Shown: positions 3,587 through 37,084 of the stretch, one piece after another
How the letters are laid out: the number at the start of each line of letters is the position of its first letter
Position numbering within the stretch: position 1 is the first letter of the stretch
NCBI RefSeq assembly: GCF_003025005.1
Contig: NZ_PVSS01000003.1
Coordinates: forward strand, 186,001 to 250,000
DNA from: Brumimicrobium mesophilum
GTDB taxonomy: Bacteria; Bacteroidota; Bacteroidia; Flavobacteriales_D; Crocinitomicaceae
DNA length: 64,000 nt
Reading direction: 5' to 3'
Made by a program: the position numbers and the translations under genes
The notes under the pieces: generated by a model
The model's database searches: none
The model's input: only the letters and a program-made list of their open reading frames with translations
What the model was told of the DNA's origin: nothing

Positions 3587-3663
3587 GTTGTAGTTTGTTT
3601 TCTGATATTAGAATTCAATATTGGAGCTAAATTAATAATTTATTGGAGCTTTCTTTATCCTAT

Positions 3664-4035
3664 CTATCTCTCTTTTGAAATAGTCTTCAATTCAAATCCA
3701 ATTAGAATCGCAATAACCACAAATTCACCAATAAAATAAGATAAGTCTAACTGAGTTAATTTTGGAAAATATTTAATGATGAATACAATCGAAAGTGATA
3801 AGTAAGAACTGTTTAAAAATATTAATATACTTAAAAAAAGTTTCCATTTTGATTTTACAAACTGATAACAGCTCAAAGAATAAATAAACAGACCGAACGC
3901 TATTCCAGACAATAAATAAAGAACATTTTTTGGCATTCGGAAATACTGGTCTAATTGGCCTAAAACCAAAAATAATAGGAGGGATGTTAGTAAAGCTCCA
4001 ATTGCATCAGTGAGGAATAGTTGTTTCGGGTTCAT
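3664..4035 (-). CDS. small four-helix membrane protein of unknown function
   Basis: The 123-residue product is almost entirely hydrophobic and shows four probable transmembrane helices (about 12-28, 37-56, 66-86 and 98-115). Conserved polar or catalytic motifs are not evident and I do not recognise the family. It starts seven bases after the stop of the upstream reductase gene, so the two are probably co-transcribed. The helicase gene follows 77 bp downstream on the same strand. A membrane location is the only functional statement supported. Confidence 0.65.
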   Translation of the reverse strand: MNPKQLFLTDAIGALLTSLLLFLVLGQLDQYFRMPKNVLYLLSGIAFGLFIYSLSCYQFVKSKWKLFLSILIFLNSSYLSLSIVFIIKYFPKLTQLDLSYFIGEFVVIAILIGFELKTISKER

Positions 4036-4042
4036 GAATAGT

Positions 4043-5158
4043 CTAATAACTCTTCCTAAACTTTTTTTCTACCGAAAAATTGATCAAATTCATGAAATTC
4101 TCGTGAACTCCTAAAGTGATGTCTAACTTTAATTGATCTATCAATTTTAAAATTGAATCAGGGTTAAACTGTAAATCAGGAACTGAAATGTATTTCTCAA
4201 ATAAACTTCCCAAAGTTTTGTAGTACAATGTTTCGAAGGTATTTTGATTTTCAGGTTTTTCTTCAACATACTTGTAGGAGTGGATATCAAAAGCTTCTAG
4301 TACATCTCCAACATAATCTTTGTGTAATATTTGTTTAGGATTAACAATGTTTAATTCACCAATTTCTGGATTAAGGAAAGCATATAAAATGGCTTTTGAT
4401 ACAAAATCTACAGGTACAATGTTTAATCCGCTATTTTTATCAATCCAAATTCTGAATTTATCAATTGGTTTATTGGCGTATTTATCTAAAAAAATAGGCC
4501 ACGAATAAAAGACATCATATTTAGGCGTTTCAAAAAAAGGCTTGTCTATTAATCGTCCACATATAATGCTAGGTCTTAAAATCTGAGCAATAATACCTAG
4601 TGAGCGGCAGGTTTCTTTAACAAAACGCTCACTTTCATATTTTGATTGTTCGTAGGGATTTCTGAAGTTCTTAACATCGTAATTTGAAATGTTATCATTC
4701 ACTTTTTGATCTTGAATTCCAAATGAATAGGCTGTACTAATATAAAGAAAGCGTTGAACTGTCTTTGGAAGTTGTTCCAAAAGATGCTTTGTTACCTGAT
4801 AGTTTTGATTGTGAACAATTGTTTTGGAGTCATTTGTATTCAATAGACTTGTTGAGCCAGCGCAATGAATAACAGTATTGAAGTCAAACTGAGTTAGAAT
4901 TTCATTGGAAATTTTAGATAAATCTTCAGAGATGACAGTTATTTTCTCTAAACATTCTTCAATTGTAAACTGATTAAGAAATGCTGGTCGTGATTCATCT
5001 TGAAGAATATCGATCAAACGTTGTTGAGCCGATTTATCATTGTTTCGAATTACTACATATAAGTGATTTACCGATTTTTCAACAAGCGATTTGTGCACCC
5101 ATTCAAAAATAATGTGACTTCCAACAATTCCAGCTCCTCCAGTTAATAGACAATTCAT
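4043..5158 (-). CDS. NAD(P)-dependent reductase/epimerase-like protein (extended SDR fold, NAD_binding_4 type)
   Basis: Starting at the ATG at 5158 (371 residues), the protein opens with MNCLLTGGAGIVGS, placing the TGGxGxxG dinucleotide-binding motif at residues 6-13 as usual for extended short-chain dehydrogenases. The frame stays open 16 codons further upstream, but that would put non-conserved residues ahead of the first beta strand. The catalytic YxxxK is in NPYEQSKYESE. The spacing and the LRPSIICG segment resemble thioester-reductase or fatty-acyl reductase domains (NAD_binding_4) rather than sugar epimerases. The substrate cannot be told. Transcribed with the small membrane protein gene seven bases downstream. 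Confidence 0.75.
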   Translation of the reverse strand: MNCLLTGGAGIVGSHIIFEWVHKSLVEKSVNHLYVVIRNNDKSAQQRLIDILQDESRPAFLNQFTIEECLEKITVISEDLSKISNEILTQFDFNTVIHCAGSTSLLNTNDSKTIVHNQNYQVTKHLLEQLPKTVQRFLYISTAYSFGIQDQKVNDNISNYDVKNFRNPYEQSKYESERFVKETCRSLGIIAQILRPSIICGRLIDKPFFETPKYDVFYSWPIFLDKYANKPIDKFRIWIDKNSGLNIVPVDFVSKAILYAFLNPEIGELNIVNPKQILHKDYVGDVLEAFDIHSYKYVEEKPENQNTFETLYYKTLGSLFEKYISVPDLQFNPDSILKLIDQLKLDITLGVHENFMNLINFSVEKKFRKSY

Positions 5159-5510
5159 AATTTCAGTAAAGTTTTTGCAAGTATAAGCTATTTTTAAGAT
5201 TATCACGATATCTTAATTTCAATCAAATTGAATTCCATTGAAATTCTCAAGTTTATTATTAAATTTTGAATGGTTTGTTTTTTGAGTTTCTACCGTTGAG
5301 CAATAATAATTGGGATAAAGATAAGGGGGTATTAACGCTGTGCGAAATAGGTTAACCCTTGATATCTTTATTAAAGTTTCGAATTTAGAAAAGGTCGATG
5401 TAGAATTTCAATCTAAAATGAATAAGACATTAGTTTTAAAACTTATTTTATTTATTCGTGAGAAGCATTTTATAAAGAGATAAAGAATCAATTTGATAAC
5501 TAAACAATAA
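5159..5510. other. intergenic stretch without a recognised gene
   Basis: AT-rich DNA between the divergent end of the reductase gene and the serA terminator. A weak plus-strand frame from GTG 5340 to TAA 5483 (47 codons) has no recognisable similarity or ribosome-binding site, so I do not call it. I see no repeat or promoter with both boxes here. Confidence 0.5.
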
Positions 5511-31977: not shown

Positions 31978-33018
31978 TCAAACCTTGATCTTATCATTGT
32001 TAACGTCATTGTCATAACCTTCCAAGGCTCTTTTAAGTTTTCTTTTGATTCTATTCTTTAAATATCTAGGTTTTAAGACCTTAATGGAATCACCAAATCC
32101 TAGAATAAGTCGGTCGAATTCAAAGTTAAGATGAACTTTTAAACTGATAATCACACTTCCATCTTGTAATCTTCCAACTACTTTTTGGGAATGATGAAAT
32201 GGTTTGGTGATAACATAAGGTGCATTAGGTCGGTCTATTTGGAGTTCAATTTCCTGTAATTGATCATCATTTAGAACTGTTACACCTATTGTGTTTTTGT
32301 AAAATTCATCACCATTAAAATTCTCGTTTAAATATGGGGTATCTAAATTGTATTCAATATTTGTAATTCTGTCGAGTGCAAGTGTCAAAATTTGTTTTTG
32401 TTTTGCCTGACGTCCAACAAGAAACCATCGGTTATTAAACTGTTTAAGGATATAGGGATGAAAAACATAGTCCGAAGATGCTCTCGCTTTAAAAGATTGA
32501 TAAGTAATGTTCAGACATATTTTCTTTAATATTGCTTGATAAAGAGTGTCTAAGTATTGCAATCCTTTTAAGTTTTCATTTTTATCCAAATGAATAATGG
32601 CAGGCTGAGTGGTTTTTTCAGTATATATTTTGTCCTCTAGGCGTTGAATAATTCCATCTAATTCTGAAAAAAGTGAGAAATCTTTGAATTGTTTTAGCAT
32701 TTCAACTGTTTCAGATAGTACATTCATATCTGTTTCAGTAAGTGGAATATTCGTTATTGAAAAATTTTCATCTTCGTAACGATAATACTTTTTATCATAC
32801 ACTACAATTGGTGCGTTGTAGCCTAATTTATCAGTTCGCATTAACTGAATATCAAGTTGAACACTTCTTTTACTCACATTGATATCACGTCCTTCATATT
32901 CATTTAGAGCATCAGAACAAGCGTCAATTAAATCCTCTAGAGTCCATTTTCTATATTTATTTTGTAAACATTTGTCGATAGTCTTATACCGAATAAGTGC
33001 ATTTTTGTTCTGAGCCAT
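31978..33018 (-). CDS. WYL-domain transcriptional regulator, divergent to rtcB
   Basis: A 346-residue protein with an N-terminal winged helix-turn-helix (about 5-75: KTIDKCLQNKYRKWTLEDLIDACSDALNE, then SKRSVQLDIQLM) and a WYL ligand domain at about 165-240 (SDYVFHPYILKQFNNRWFLVGRQAKQ), where the Trp-Phe-Leu triplet is the WYL signature. A C-terminal WCX-like extension follows. WYL regulators often sense nucleic-acid or nucleotide signals. It is divergent from rtcB with 84 bp between the start codons, so it is the prime candidate to control that module. The activating ligand is unknown. Confidence 0.85.
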   Translation of the reverse strand: MAQNKNALIRYKTIDKCLQNKYRKWTLEDLIDACSDALNEYEGRDINVSKRSVQLDIQLMRTDKLGYNAPIVVYDKKYYRYEDENFSITNIPLTETDMNVLSETVEMLKQFKDFSLFSELDGIIQRLEDKIYTEKTTQPAIIHLDKNENLKGLQYLDTLYQAILKKICLNITYQSFKARASSDYVFHPYILKQFNNRWFLVGRQAKQKQILTLALDRITNIEYNLDTPYLNENFNGDEFYKNTIGVTVLNDDQLQEIELQIDRPNAPYVITKPFHHSQKVVGRLQDGSVIISLKVHLNFEFDRLILGFGDSIKVLKPRYLKNRIKRKLKRALEGYDNDVNNDKIKV

Positions 33019-33084: not shown

Positions 33085-34530
<1,446 letters not shown>

Positions 34531-34539
34531 TTATTAAAA

Positions 34540-34600
34540 TTCTGTCTACGTACTTACCTTGCGCATTAAGATCCAATCTTTGTAATGTCGAAGGACAGAA
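34540..34600 (+). other. short inverted repeat between rtcB and the tRNA-like gene
   Basis: TTCTGTC (34540-34546) and GACAGAA (34594-34600) can pair around a 47-nt spacer that holds a small hairpin (AAGAT CCA ATCTT). They lie 18 bases before the tRNA-like gene, so could be a processing or attenuation structure. A seven-base match in AT-rich DNA is not strong evidence. Confidence 0.3.
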
Positions 34601-34617
34601 CATTATTTTAATATTTA

Positions 34618-34774
34618 GAGGCAGTAGCTCAGCTGGTAGAGCAGGTCAGTTTTTAAATTACTCATTTACTTTTGAGATACTTACTTATGAAAGAGTCAAA
34701 TAGTAGTTTTGGGTCAATAAAAACTTACTTCAACATTCCAGTCCAGGACGTGGGTTCGAATCCTACCTGCCTCA
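34618..34774 (+). tRNA. tRNA-like gene with 101-nt anticodon arm (intron-containing or decoy tRNA)
   Basis: Acceptor stem GAGGCAG (34618-34624) and CTGCCTC (34767-34773) gives seven Watson-Crick pairs, followed by discriminator A. The D arm is GCTC AGCTGGTA GAGC (34627-34642). The T arm is GTGGG TTCGAAT CCTAC (34750-34766, one G-U pair), with a five-base variable loop. CCA is not encoded. Positions 27-43 should take 17 bases but span 34644-34744, 101 bases. A U run at 34650-34654 would supply anticodon UUU (Lys-like) in either register. If an intron follows position 37, it is about 84 nt. The two ends then pair only as G-C, G-C, U.U, C-G, so the mature stem looks weak. It may be a spliced tRNA, a pseudogene, or a decoy or sensor RNA. 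Confidence 0.75.
34644..34744 (+). other. expanded anticodon arm/putative intron of the tRNA-like gene
   Basis: Inside the insert, GTTTTTA (34649-34655) can pair with TAAAAAC (34718-34724), holding the putative anticodon U run in a helix, as introns of eukaryal and archaeal pre-tRNAs often do. A smaller hairpin CTCA/TGAG (34661-34664 and 34673-34676) lies within. GGTCA occurs at both 34644-34648 and 34712-34716. The insert is too short for a group I or II intron, and no canonical bulge-helix-bulge could be drawn by hand. Confidence 0.45.
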
Positions 34775-34796: not shown

Positions 34797-37046
34797 ATGA
34801 AAACTAATGTAATAAAAGTAGCCATTCGAAAAAATGCAATCGTAATTCAAAAGGATTGGATCACGGGTGATATAGAAACACAAATCAACGAAACAACAAG
34901 CGAGTTTTTAGCAAATTGTGCGAAATTGGGTTACACTTTTTCTGAGGAATTATTGTATGAGGTTAACCGTATTTCTCCATTACGCAAATTAGAAATATTT
35001 AATATATTGAAAGAGGTTTCAGGTGTAAATAAAAACTGGACACCTTTGGTAAAACAATGGGATATCTCAACTAATGAAACCATTATTGATCATATCATAA
35101 CATGGTTTTCTAATGTTTTTCATTTGAATAATGGAACTAAACTGCCATGTGGACACCTAATACCAGAAAATACATTTCCAATTGAACACTATAATGGTTG
35201 TCCATTTTGTGGAACTCCTTTCCAATTTGATGAGTTGAATTATACTACTAGTGAAAACAAGTTGAAAATTCTTGAATTGTGGACAGAAAATGATTTGAAA
35301 AATGAATTAAAATCTCTTTTAGAATCTCCAGTCGTTCTTGATGCAACCCAAGTTGATGGTCTTAATATTTTAATTCACCATTTTGGAGTCTCTAATGAAT
35401 CAAAAGTAAAAATTAAAGAAACTTTAATGATTGTTATTGATGCTTTAGTTGAAAGTAATCAATTGGAATTGGCTGGACAGTTTTTCAAAACCCCAACAGA
35501 TATCCTTCGATACTTATGGTTCAAACATACTGGTTTATTGCAAATTATTGAACCTAAAACAATCGTTAACCGAATGAAAAGGAATGCTTCGAATTTGTAT
35601 TGTCAATTAGATAAAAGTTCTGAGGTGAAAATAAAAGCGTTGTCCGATTTAAAATTGAAATTCAATAGATCAGAATGCAGAATGTATGCCAATTGGTTAA
35701 ATAATTTGAGTTTGGATATTCCTGAACAATGTGAAAATATGCATTCTAAAAGAGGTATTTGGGTAAGGGTAATTCGAGCGTTGAGATTAACAGAATTCAG
35801 TAAGAAAAAAGGCTTTGAAAACTTGGCCGAATTACTTGATCTTTTCTACACTGGACAATATGAAGTTTGGCAAGGAAAAGTGAATCATTTCAAATTAAAA
35901 ACTGACGCAGCTCAAACTTTCGCATTGTTAAAACAAAGACCTGGTTTGTTTGCAAGATCGTTATTCTCAACAATGTTGTGGTTTGGTCCAGATGTTACAA
36001 TCCAACATTTCAAGGAGATTTTAAATCAAGTTCCTTCTCGTTTAATTTTTACTTTAAATATGTATGCGGATTTGTATTTTGATAAAAATGCTTCAAGAAT
36101 GGTAAAGCCACTTGGTGGAATCAGCAAAAGAATTGAGGTCAATAAATTACTTTGTTTATATAGTGATGACGAATTGAAAAGAATGCAATCACTTATTCAA
36201 GATTTGAGTTTTGCAGCAATTAAAAGTAAATTACAGAACGCGAAAACGACATGTAAAACGATGTACATTGATAATGAGTTATTTAACATTCCTTTTGCTA
36301 TTGGCGACAGAACAGATCATATTCAAGATTTGCAAGGCGCTTTGATGGGAACAAAGTTTAAGGTCGCAGGAGAAAATGTTCGTTTATTTTTACAATGGGG
36401 AGAAGGTTTACCAGCTCAGCATCTCGACATGGATTTGAGTTGTAATGTAGCTTATGAAAATGAGAGTGATTTTTGTTCATACTCTCGACTTACTATTCCA
36501 GGATGCCAGCACAGTGGAGATATTCAGAATATTCCTAATAAAGTTGGAACGGCTGAATATATCGATGTTAATTTGAATAAATTGACAAATTTAGGAGCAA
36601 AATATGTTAGTTTTACTTGTAATTCATATACAAATGGAAGTTTAACACCGAATTTAACAGTGGGCTGGATGAACAGTGAATTTCCAATGAAAATTTCACC
36701 AAGTGGAGTTGCTTATAATCCAAGCTCCTTACAACATCAAGTTAGAATTAAGCAGTCACTTACCAAAGGGATGGTATTTGGAGTTCTCGATGTTGTTTCA
36801 AGAGAAATTATTTGGTTAGAAATGCCTTTTGATGGGCAAATTGTTCAAAATCTCGACGTTTCGGGAGTAGAAACTTTGACGAAAAAGCTGGATGCTAAGT
36901 TAAAAATTGGAAATTTATTAAAATTGAAATCTGAAGTTCAAAACTTAACTATTGTTCAAACTCCAGAAGAGGCCAATGAAATTTATGATATGCAATGGGC
37001 AATGAATACTTCGGAAGTGAGTAAAATGTTTTTAGATAAAAAGTAG
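34797..37046 (+). CDS. uncharacterised protein with putative zinc site and TerD-like C-terminal domain
   Basis: A 749-residue protein. Residues 115-142 contain a Cys-x-His followed by Cys-x2-Cys (C118, H120, C135, C138), a likely zinc-ribbon or RING-like site. Residues 150-500 are mainly helical with no recognised domain. About 525-700 resembles TerD: LFLQWGEGLPAQHLDMDL, FCSYSRLTIPGCQHSGDI and EYIDVNLNKLTNLGAKYVSFT match the acidic calcium-binding strands and the HSGD motif (H572-D575). It starts 22 bp after the tRNA-like gene, in the same direction, and is probably the last gene of the rtcB unit. No catalytic motif is seen. A structural or RNA-binding role is inference. Confidence 0.75.
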   Translation: MKTNVIKVAIRKNAIVIQKDWITGDIETQINETTSEFLANCAKLGYTFSEELLYEVNRISPLRKLEIFNILKEVSGVNKNWTPLVKQWDISTNETIIDHIITWFSNVFHLNNGTKLPCGHLIPENTFPIEHYNGCPFCGTPFQFDELNYTTSENKLKILELWTENDLKNELKSLLESPVVLDATQVDGLNILIHHFGVSNESKVKIKETLMIVIDALVESNQLELAGQFFKTPTDILRYLWFKHTGLLQIIEPKTIVNRMKRNASNLYCQLDKSSEVKIKALSDLKLKFNRSECRMYANWLNNLSLDIPEQCENMHSKRGIWVRVIRALRLTEFSKKKGFENLAELLDLFYTGQYEVWQGKVNHFKLKTDAAQTFALLKQRPGLFARSLFSTMLWFGPDVTIQHFKEILNQVPSRLIFTLNMYADLYFDKNASRMVKPLGGISKRIEVNKLLCLYSDDELKRMQSLIQDLSFAAIKSKLQNAKTTCKTMYIDNELFNIPFAIGDRTDHIQDLQGALMGTKFKVAGENVRLFLQWGEGLPAQHLDMDLSCNVAYENESDFCSYSRLTIPGCQHSGDIQNIPNKVGTAEYIDVNLNKLTNLGAKYVSFTCNSYTNGSLTPNLTVGWMNSEFPMKISPSGVAYNPSSLQHQVRIKQSLTKGMVFGVLDVVSREIIWLEMPFDGQIVQNLDVSGVETLTKKLDAKLKIGNLLKLKSEVQNLTIVQTPEEANEIYDMQWAMNTSEVSKMFLDKK

Positions 37047-37050
37047 AATT

Positions 37051-37084
37051 GAGGAAATGAACTTCATTTCCTCAGTTCTTTTTA
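37051..37084 (+). terminator. terminator of the rtcB/TerD-like unit
   Basis: GAGGAAAT (37051-37058) and ATTTCCTC (37066-37073), extended by GAA and TTC around a single C, followed by TTCTTTTT. It starts four bases after the stop. Confidence 0.75.

Follow-up and report, generated by a model that had tools for sequence, protein, structure and literature searches.

A probable circularly permuted YrlA-type Y RNA encoded beside a RING-type protein gene in Brumimicrobium mesophilum

The genome of Brumimicrobium mesophilum carries, between a gene for an RtcB-like RNA ligase and a gene for a RING-type protein, a small tRNA-like RNA gene whose anticodon arm is replaced by a long stem. It lies at positions 34618 to 34774 of the 64,000-nt stretch analysed here (contig NZ_PVSS01000003.1, positions 186,001 to 250,000; hereafter the window). 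The known partner of Y RNAs is the Ro60 protein, and the window RNA is quite probably a bacterial Y RNA of the YrlA type that has been circularly permuted, has a free acceptor end and likely serves the RING/TerD-like protein encoded next to it. Its identity as a YrlA-type Y RNA is fairly well supported by sequence comparison; the company the RNA keeps leads us to infer that the RING/TerD-like protein, and not Ro60, is its likely partner.

The likeness to YrlA is one of parts and setting, and the difference is one of topology. YrlA (RF02553; Salmonella rsr-yrlA-rtcBA) and the window RNA both have D, T and acceptor arms, with the anticodon side continuing as a protein-binding stem in YrlA and as a stem of the same kind in the window, and both belong to RNA-repair operons with RtcB. 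In YrlA, however, the Ro60-holding stem is formed by the two ends and the acceptor is closed, whereas the window RNA has its ends at the acceptor and a stem closed by a loop; the neighbour of YrlA is the Ro60 (TROVE) gene, that of the window RNA the RING/TerD-like gene. A review describes YrlA as a basal stem for Rsr joined to D, T and acceptor arms, with a tRNA-like domain that reaches PNPase (PMC8394870), and the superposition of YrlA on tRNA has been reported to involve a circular permutation (PMC11472068).

Anatomy of the RNA and its relatives

Positions 34618 to 34774 are the exact extent of a match to the Rfam tRNA family (RF00005; 42.9 bits, E 6.3e-7), in which 99 nt take the place of 15 positions in the model's anticodon arm. 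ARAGORN calls no tRNA there when introns are disallowed, and a tRNA-Lys(ttt) with an 82-nt intron when they are allowed. The folding z-score against shuffled sequence is -2.95, with 1 of 200 shuffles equally good. A model of the window-type RNA as it stands (R2, 28 rows) gives the window copy 99.6 bits, the window copy being among its training rows. The original prediction, made from the letters alone, had proposed an expanded tRNA-like gene here with a 7-bp acceptor stem and intact D and T arms, 87 nt from an rtcB gene on the same strand, and these observations were confirmed. The parts of the RNA are as follows.

34618 to 34774, + strand: tRNA-like RNA, read as a circularly permuted YrlA-type Y RNA (Rfam tRNA, R2, conservation in relatives)
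34618 to 34624, + strand: acceptor stem, 5' strand, 7 bp with 34767 to 34773 (sequence; alignment of relatives)
34627 to 34642, + strand: D arm, GCUC-AGCUGGUA-GAGC (sequence; alignment of relatives)
34644 to 34645, + strand: GG, tRNA nt 27-28, pairing with CC at 34743 to 34744 (fixed-rule annotation; alignment A4, below)
34646 to 34731, + strand: Y-type insert (sequence; covariation in relatives)
34732 to 34744, + strand: what is left of the anticodon stem-loop, which is shorter in this species and lacks the 7-nt loop with its U33
34750 to 34766, + strand: T arm, GUGGG-UUCGAAU-CCUAC (sequence; alignment of relatives)

The RNA thus consists of tRNA acceptor, D and T arms with a Y-type stem where the anticodon arm would be; the discriminator is A34774, and CCA is not encoded. 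On its 5' side the insert runs A and one helix strand (34648 to 34655), then N-AUUACU (34656 to 34662), then the loop; its 3' side reads GGUCAA (34712 to 34717), the other helix strand (34718 to 34724) and UUACUUC (34725 to 34731). The GTTTTTA/TAAAAAC pairing noticed in the original prediction is this 7-bp helix, 34649 to 34655 with 34718 to 34724, and it covaries in relatives. The UUU that had been taken as the likely anticodon, by ARAGORN too, lies within one strand of that helix; tRNA nt 39-43 read AGUCC, and no 7-nt anticodon loop can be fitted. An identity as tRNA-Lys is rejected because of the position of the UUU and because two ordinary tRNA-Lys(UUU) genes are present elsewhere in the genome. 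Intron-aware tRNA finders call RNAs of this type intron-bearing tRNAs for Lys, Gln or Thr.

Relatives of the RNA were collected through the RING-type gene. A scan of the contigs of named genomes with the single protein found no relatives; an alignment-based scan of the named genomes gave 462, and the analysis covered the best 80 of them. These come from Flavobacterium, Crocinitomix, Fluviicola, Saprospiraceae, Cytophagales, Dysgonomonas, a Chlorobi metagenome-assembled genome and others. Upstream of their start codons an element recurs, consisting of GGUCAA, 7 nt and UUACUUC, with the reverse complement of the 7 nt elsewhere, followed by 1 nt and AUUAYC. Its loose 5' motif, [AG]GTCAA-N7-TTA[CT], was counted in the 79 of 80 loci whose sequence extends 600 nt or more 5' of the RING start, and all 79 hold 3-7 copies (5 in 39 loci, 4 in 26, 3 in 8, 6 in 5 and 7 in 1). 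Every one of the 79 has at least one hairpin copy with its paired strand, and 66 have the permuted arrangement. The element lies beyond chance, since the same motif occurs only 5 times in 1.39 Mb of downstream control sequence, both strands counted, and the stretch at 34618 to 34774 folds better than shuffles of it. The element is present in RING loci both as free-standing hairpins and, in one copy of reversed topology, as the insert of the tRNA-like RNA. By eye, several hairpin loops hold a T arm (GGUUCGAAUCC) and a GG-bearing piece like a D loop. In the 7-bp helix of an alignment of 26 of the 33 listed hairpin units (A1), 60 cells show double changes against 19.1 in shuffled alignments (0 of 500 as high), though such shuffles ignore relatedness.

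A search by fixed rules in 83 loci (the 80 named loci, the window, L003 and L109) found 82 tRNA-like RNAs in 76 of them. In 61 of the 82 the insert splits tRNA nt 28 from 29 within an otherwise perfect 5-bp anticodon stem-loop with U33, the typical arm being GG-[insert]-ACA-CUUUUAA-UGU-CC. The earlier placement of the insert in the anticodon arm is right as to the arm, and in these relatives it falls in the 5' strand of the stem and not in the loop. The bodies of the intact copies are very similar; their anticodons are UUU in 36 and UCU in 18, with seven further anticodons occurring a single time. A fully intact anticodon arm is missing from 21 of the 82, the window copy included (in L113 the loop has 4 nt). 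Alignment A4 takes in 28 of the 82, omitting those longer than 165 nt, second copies in L109 and L126, and most of the near-identical Flavobacterium sequences. In it, 98.3% of helix cells are paired and 63 cells are double-changed against 17.4 in shuffled alignments (0 of 500); pairs that are invariant, among them the D stem and GG/CC, are uninformative either way. In the tRNA-like RNAs of L132 and L122 (233 and 229 nt), a second hairpin element appears, by eye, to be nested within the insert loop.

Comparison with Ro60 loci

TROVE was found in 13 of 198 Bacteroidota genomes, and the operons around it resemble that of the window in carrying a homologous WYL regulator, RtcB and arrays of Y RNAs. 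The WYL gene is present in 9 of the 13 loci (43-60% identical to the window's), and RtcB in 11 (61-63% identity to the window's in five, 28-32% in six). They differ in order, with the RNA after TROVE in Ro60 operons and before the protein gene in RING-type operons. The Rfam YrlA model finds its RNA next to TROVE in 10 of 10 loci searched, at 28.5-39.6 bits, all under the gathering threshold of 69, and the Rfam model of the Deinococcus Y RNA is recognised in three. A core pattern composed after inspection of these loci reads GGUGCYGUAG-[7 nt]-NUACUUCG ... [7 nt']-NNNN-GUUGCCC. By pattern search the helix-UACUUC layout occurs in 43 copies in 11 of the 13 loci, up to five in each. The window-type RNA shares this layout, a 7-nt helix followed by UACUUC on the anticodon side; it has GGUCAA/AUUACC instead of the Ro60-type stem sequence GGUGCYGUAG/GUUGCCC.

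Unsupervised 7-mer enrichment was run upstream of RING genes (28 chosen loci) and downstream of TROVE genes (13 loci). Upstream of RING, AGGTCAA ranks 1, TTACTTC 2 and AATTACC 5; downstream of TROVE, TACTTCG ranks 1, TGCCGTA 4 and TTACTTC 9. Neither AGGTCAA nor AATTACC is in the TROVE list. Words from the T and D arms are common to both lists, as expected of tRNA mimics.

The comparison of topology used R3, a permuted counterpart of R2 built from 17 of the 28 A4 rows (L116 and L179 were excluded, having indels in the element). Among the 13 TROVE loci, R3 scores eight at 60.7, 59.6, 51.3 (three loci), 50.0, 46.3 and 46.0 bits. The unpermuted R2 reaches at best 37.0 bits in the same loci, on an ordinary tRNA gene, and R3 gives at most 29.7 bits on tRNA-bearing control loci (47 of 60, the omitted ones mostly overlapping those kept). 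In L252 and L253, R3 and the Rfam YrlA model mark the same unit. Since the permuted model outdoes both the unpermuted one and the tRNA controls in Ro60 loci, the window RNA, which has the D, T and acceptor arms of such a domain, is read as circularly permuted YrlA: its tRNA-like domain takes the YrlA order once permuted.

One Ro60-linked YrlA unit, in L251, has the sequence UUACUUC-GCA-CUUUUAA-UGC-CC-GGGUC, with the same anticodon arm as the RING-type tRNA-like RNAs, interrupted at the same place, here by the stem that bears the ends of the RNA. The interruption in L251 is accordingly no intron.

Linkage to the RING-type gene

The genes and the candidate control region around the RNA are listed below.

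31978 to 33018, - strand: WYL-domain regulator, divergent from rtcB (profile match; homologues in RING loci and Ro60 loci)
33103 to 34530, + strand: RtcB-like RNA ligase (PF01139, E 1.5e-36)
34559 to 34582, + strand: candidate promoter/operator, TTGCGCA plus AATCTTTG (assigned by eye)
34797 to 37046, + strand: RING-type protein (NF041916, Prok-RING_4, TerD annotations of plasmid relatives)

The rtcB gene is thus adjacent to the RNA, ending at 34530, 87 nt upstream of it on the same strand, and the RING-type gene begins 22 nt past it. By eye, the candidate promoter resembles TGCGCAA..TTGCGTA..AATCTTTG blocks found 5' of the RNA in relatives. The RING-type protein has 749 aa and matches NF041916 at E 5e-37 and 127.5 bits, below the NCBIfam cut-off of 600, and Prok-RING_4 at 24.3 bits, below the Pfam cut-off of 27. 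Prok-RING_4 is, however, matched at E<=1 by 32 of 32 members of an alignment of RING proteins (A3), in which C118, H120, C135 and C138 are invariant. These sequence matches mark the protein as distantly related to the MXAN_6230/SCO0854 family. Its C-terminal half resembles TerD-annotated proteins (such an annotation is carried by 4 of the 19 plasmid records that matched), and comparison with solved structures gave no meaningful match. Past the gene, between convergent genes, a near-perfect inverted repeat at 37045 to 37079, where an Rfam microRNA match falls below cut-off, is probably a terminator.

The RING-type protein occurs in 2 of 59 genomes of relatives and 11 of 395 Bacteroidota genomes (the window's own genome included in both counts), and the element follows it closely. 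At E<=0.001, R1, a model of the hairpin element, finds it in 10 of the 395 genomes, all 10 among the 11 with the RING gene; the eleventh is the window's genome, whose single permuted copy R1 misses. In 100 genomes of the window's family R1 gives seven matches, 7 of 7 with an adjoining RING gene. The element is also present in single plasmid records from Hymenobacter, Segatella and Prevotella, whose RING proteins show 43-52% identity, and it was not found at the RING relatives (22-24% identity) of one Variovorax and one Streptomyces plasmid record. RtcB lies within the fetched flank of 42 of the 80 RING loci and WYL within that of 56, some flanks being short. An RtcB at least 60% identical to the window's is found in 12 of the 80; in Flavobacterium RING loci RtcB, where found, is a 27-29% relative located downstream. 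The constant companion of the RNA is the RING gene and not RtcB, because the genomes with the element are the RING genomes, whereas RtcB flanks 42 of 80 loci. A TROVE search of the window's own genome gave no match, and TROVE is absent by search in 17 of 18 RING genomes (G345 carries both), though an empty search alone proves little; this RING protein occurs in 0 of the 13 TROVE genomes, a co-absence that is weak evidence at these frequencies.

Several observations bear against the reading of the RNA as a permuted YrlA serving the RING protein. The hairpin model R1 finds no elements in the Ro60 loci (best 13.2 bits), and the RING and TROVE proteins themselves show no homology by hhalign (0.1%); the idea that they are homologues was dropped on that comparison. 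Among the 43 TROVE-locus copies of the layout, a paired strand and 3' motif were found for 26, one probably spurious. R3 is weak (33-38 bits) in four TROVE loci and finds nothing at E<=0.01 in L254, and of its eight strong loci L258, L260 and L261, the three at 51.3 bits, are close relatives. Its score comes largely from the order T arm, acceptor, D arm; in L253 the UUACUUC and helix of the best match align poorly, so R3 tests the permutation more than the stem. In A1 the number of pairs with double changes, 8 against 6.8 shuffled (126 of 500), is not above the shuffled level. The window holds a single copy of the element, in the permuted arrangement, and 7 of the 83 loci have no full tRNA-like RNA, although one of these (L176) has no upstream sequence. 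The uneven presence of RtcB beside the RING loci counts on the same side. We infer that the RING-type and YrlA stems are homologous rather than convergent, a judgement founded on layout and shared words; convergence is conceivable because R1 does not cross-match.

Some RING loci carry additional genes. Extra tRNA genes, as many as eleven in one array, stand upstream of the element array in L105, L110, L112, L119, L122, L132, L147, L171, L179 and L189 (L110, L112 and L189 are the same places as L104, L107 and L108, respectively). They include Ser, Cys, Pro, Tyr, Gln, Leu (without the long variable arm), His, Phe, Arg, Glu and other tRNAs; by eye, those in G468 are clearly unlike its own ordinary tRNAs and resemble the ones in G505, which belongs to a different genus. 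In L104, two genes for RlaP-type nucleotidyltransferases (PF10127) occupy 3615 to 5431, with rtcB on one side and the tRNA array on the other. The stress-induced trn operon of Anabaena likewise joins a tRNA array to rtcB, co-regulated under TrcR, a repressor of the ribbon-helix-helix and not the WYL type; the available part of that account mentions no Y-type RNA (PMC10272220). On the Variovorax plasmid (L248), from a betaproteobacterium, the distant RING-family protein is encoded near rtcR, the RNA-repair activator. The viral contigs searched gave no RING relatives and a phage collection five distant ones, among them one on an unverified phage contig (L250, MT835874.1) downstream of four tRNA genes.

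Alternative readings and a possible role

The element might be a leader and nothing else, controlling translation of the RING gene in cis by autoregulation, with no separate life as a ribonucleoprotein (RNP). The array does stand directly before the RING start codon in the loci read by eye, and the linkage to RING fits as well. Similar arrays nevertheless follow TROVE genes, several of them between TROVE and rtcB, so a leader position is not general, and this explanation is unlikely.

Slightly less probable is a decoy or sensor tRNA, in which an anticodon nuclease would cut the Lys/Arg-like arm within the RING mRNA leader and so alter RING expression until RtcB repairs it. Relatives do retain UUU and UCU arms, and the RNA does precede the RING gene. 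The Salmonella rtcBA operon is switched on by damaged tRNAs, and YrlA has been suggested to be a competitive inhibitor of a nuclease, although no YrlA fragments were detected in the same work (PMC7790460). The window copy cannot be bait of that kind, since its anticodon loop is not intact. The original prediction had held a decoy or sensor in reserve; the notion of a tRNA mimic rather than a decoding tRNA survives from it, and that of nuclease bait fails for this copy.

Less probable still is a form of the original proposal, a tRNA with a small intron in its anticodon stem (28/29), cut by an endonuclease or a ribozyme and ligated by RtcB. In Archaea and animals, intron-containing tRNAs are spliced by an endonuclease and RtcB. 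Those tRNAs resemble the window RNA in combining an anticodon-arm insert with RtcB; the window RNA differs in its Y-type stem and in the evidence against decoding. RtcB is adjacent in the window and present somewhere in all 18 RING genomes tested, and removal of the insert gives the perfect 5-bp stem and U33 in the 61 copies noted above. What removal does not restore is a decoding tRNA with a stable anticodon, as the window's arm is degenerate, 21 copies have no fully intact arm and the anticodon varies between relatives. The element also forms free-standing hairpins, and the Ro60-linked YrlA of L251 has its end-bearing stem at the same point of interruption. The proposal had also foreseen a conserved tRNA-like gene in an RNA-repair setting, and on this it was correct, homologues near rtcB being found in related genomes. 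Group I and II introns, already dismissed for the shortness of the insert, are rejected also because the 4.5 kb scanned contain no match to an Rfam intron family. A self-cleaving ribozyme was considered and set aside, as no Rfam ribozyme family matches at the element and no cleavage site speaks for one.

Returning to the permuted YrlA, we tentatively propose a Ro60-independent Y RNP, a scenario that is possible but somewhat short of even odds: a RING/TerD-like protein may have taken over the Y RNA of a repair operon, with the RNA turned inside out and its acceptor freed. With its Y-type stem closed by a loop and its ends at the acceptor, the RNA reads as a tRNA with an insert in the anticodon stem. 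The RING/TerD-like protein would bind the stem as Ro60 does, through GGUCAA/AUUACC and UUACUUC, set at a fixed distance across the 7-bp helix. The tRNA-like part could then tether the protein to a tRNA-handling factor or to tRNA fragments during RNA damage, alongside repair by RtcB, the mimic recruiting the tRNA-handling factor in RNA quality control. The open acceptor end is the chief mechanical difference from YrlA: RNase P and RNase Z may trim the ends, CCA may be added, and charging is perhaps possible. The roles of the YrlA stem in holding Rsr and of its tRNA-like domain in reaching PNPase have, according to a research paper, been studied only in Deinococcus (PMC7790460). We found no earlier description of such an RNA in the open-licence literature, and one may exist elsewhere.

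Should this reading hold, the RNA and not the protein would be the constant part of the machine. Many Bacteroidota operons, with an unrelated protein in the position of Ro60 and an RNA that retains a helix, a UACUUC motif and a tRNA mimic, would then offer a natural test of the separate roles of the stem and the tRNA-like domain, and the regained tRNA end would give direct predictions on processing and charging that are impossible for YrlA with its closed acceptor.
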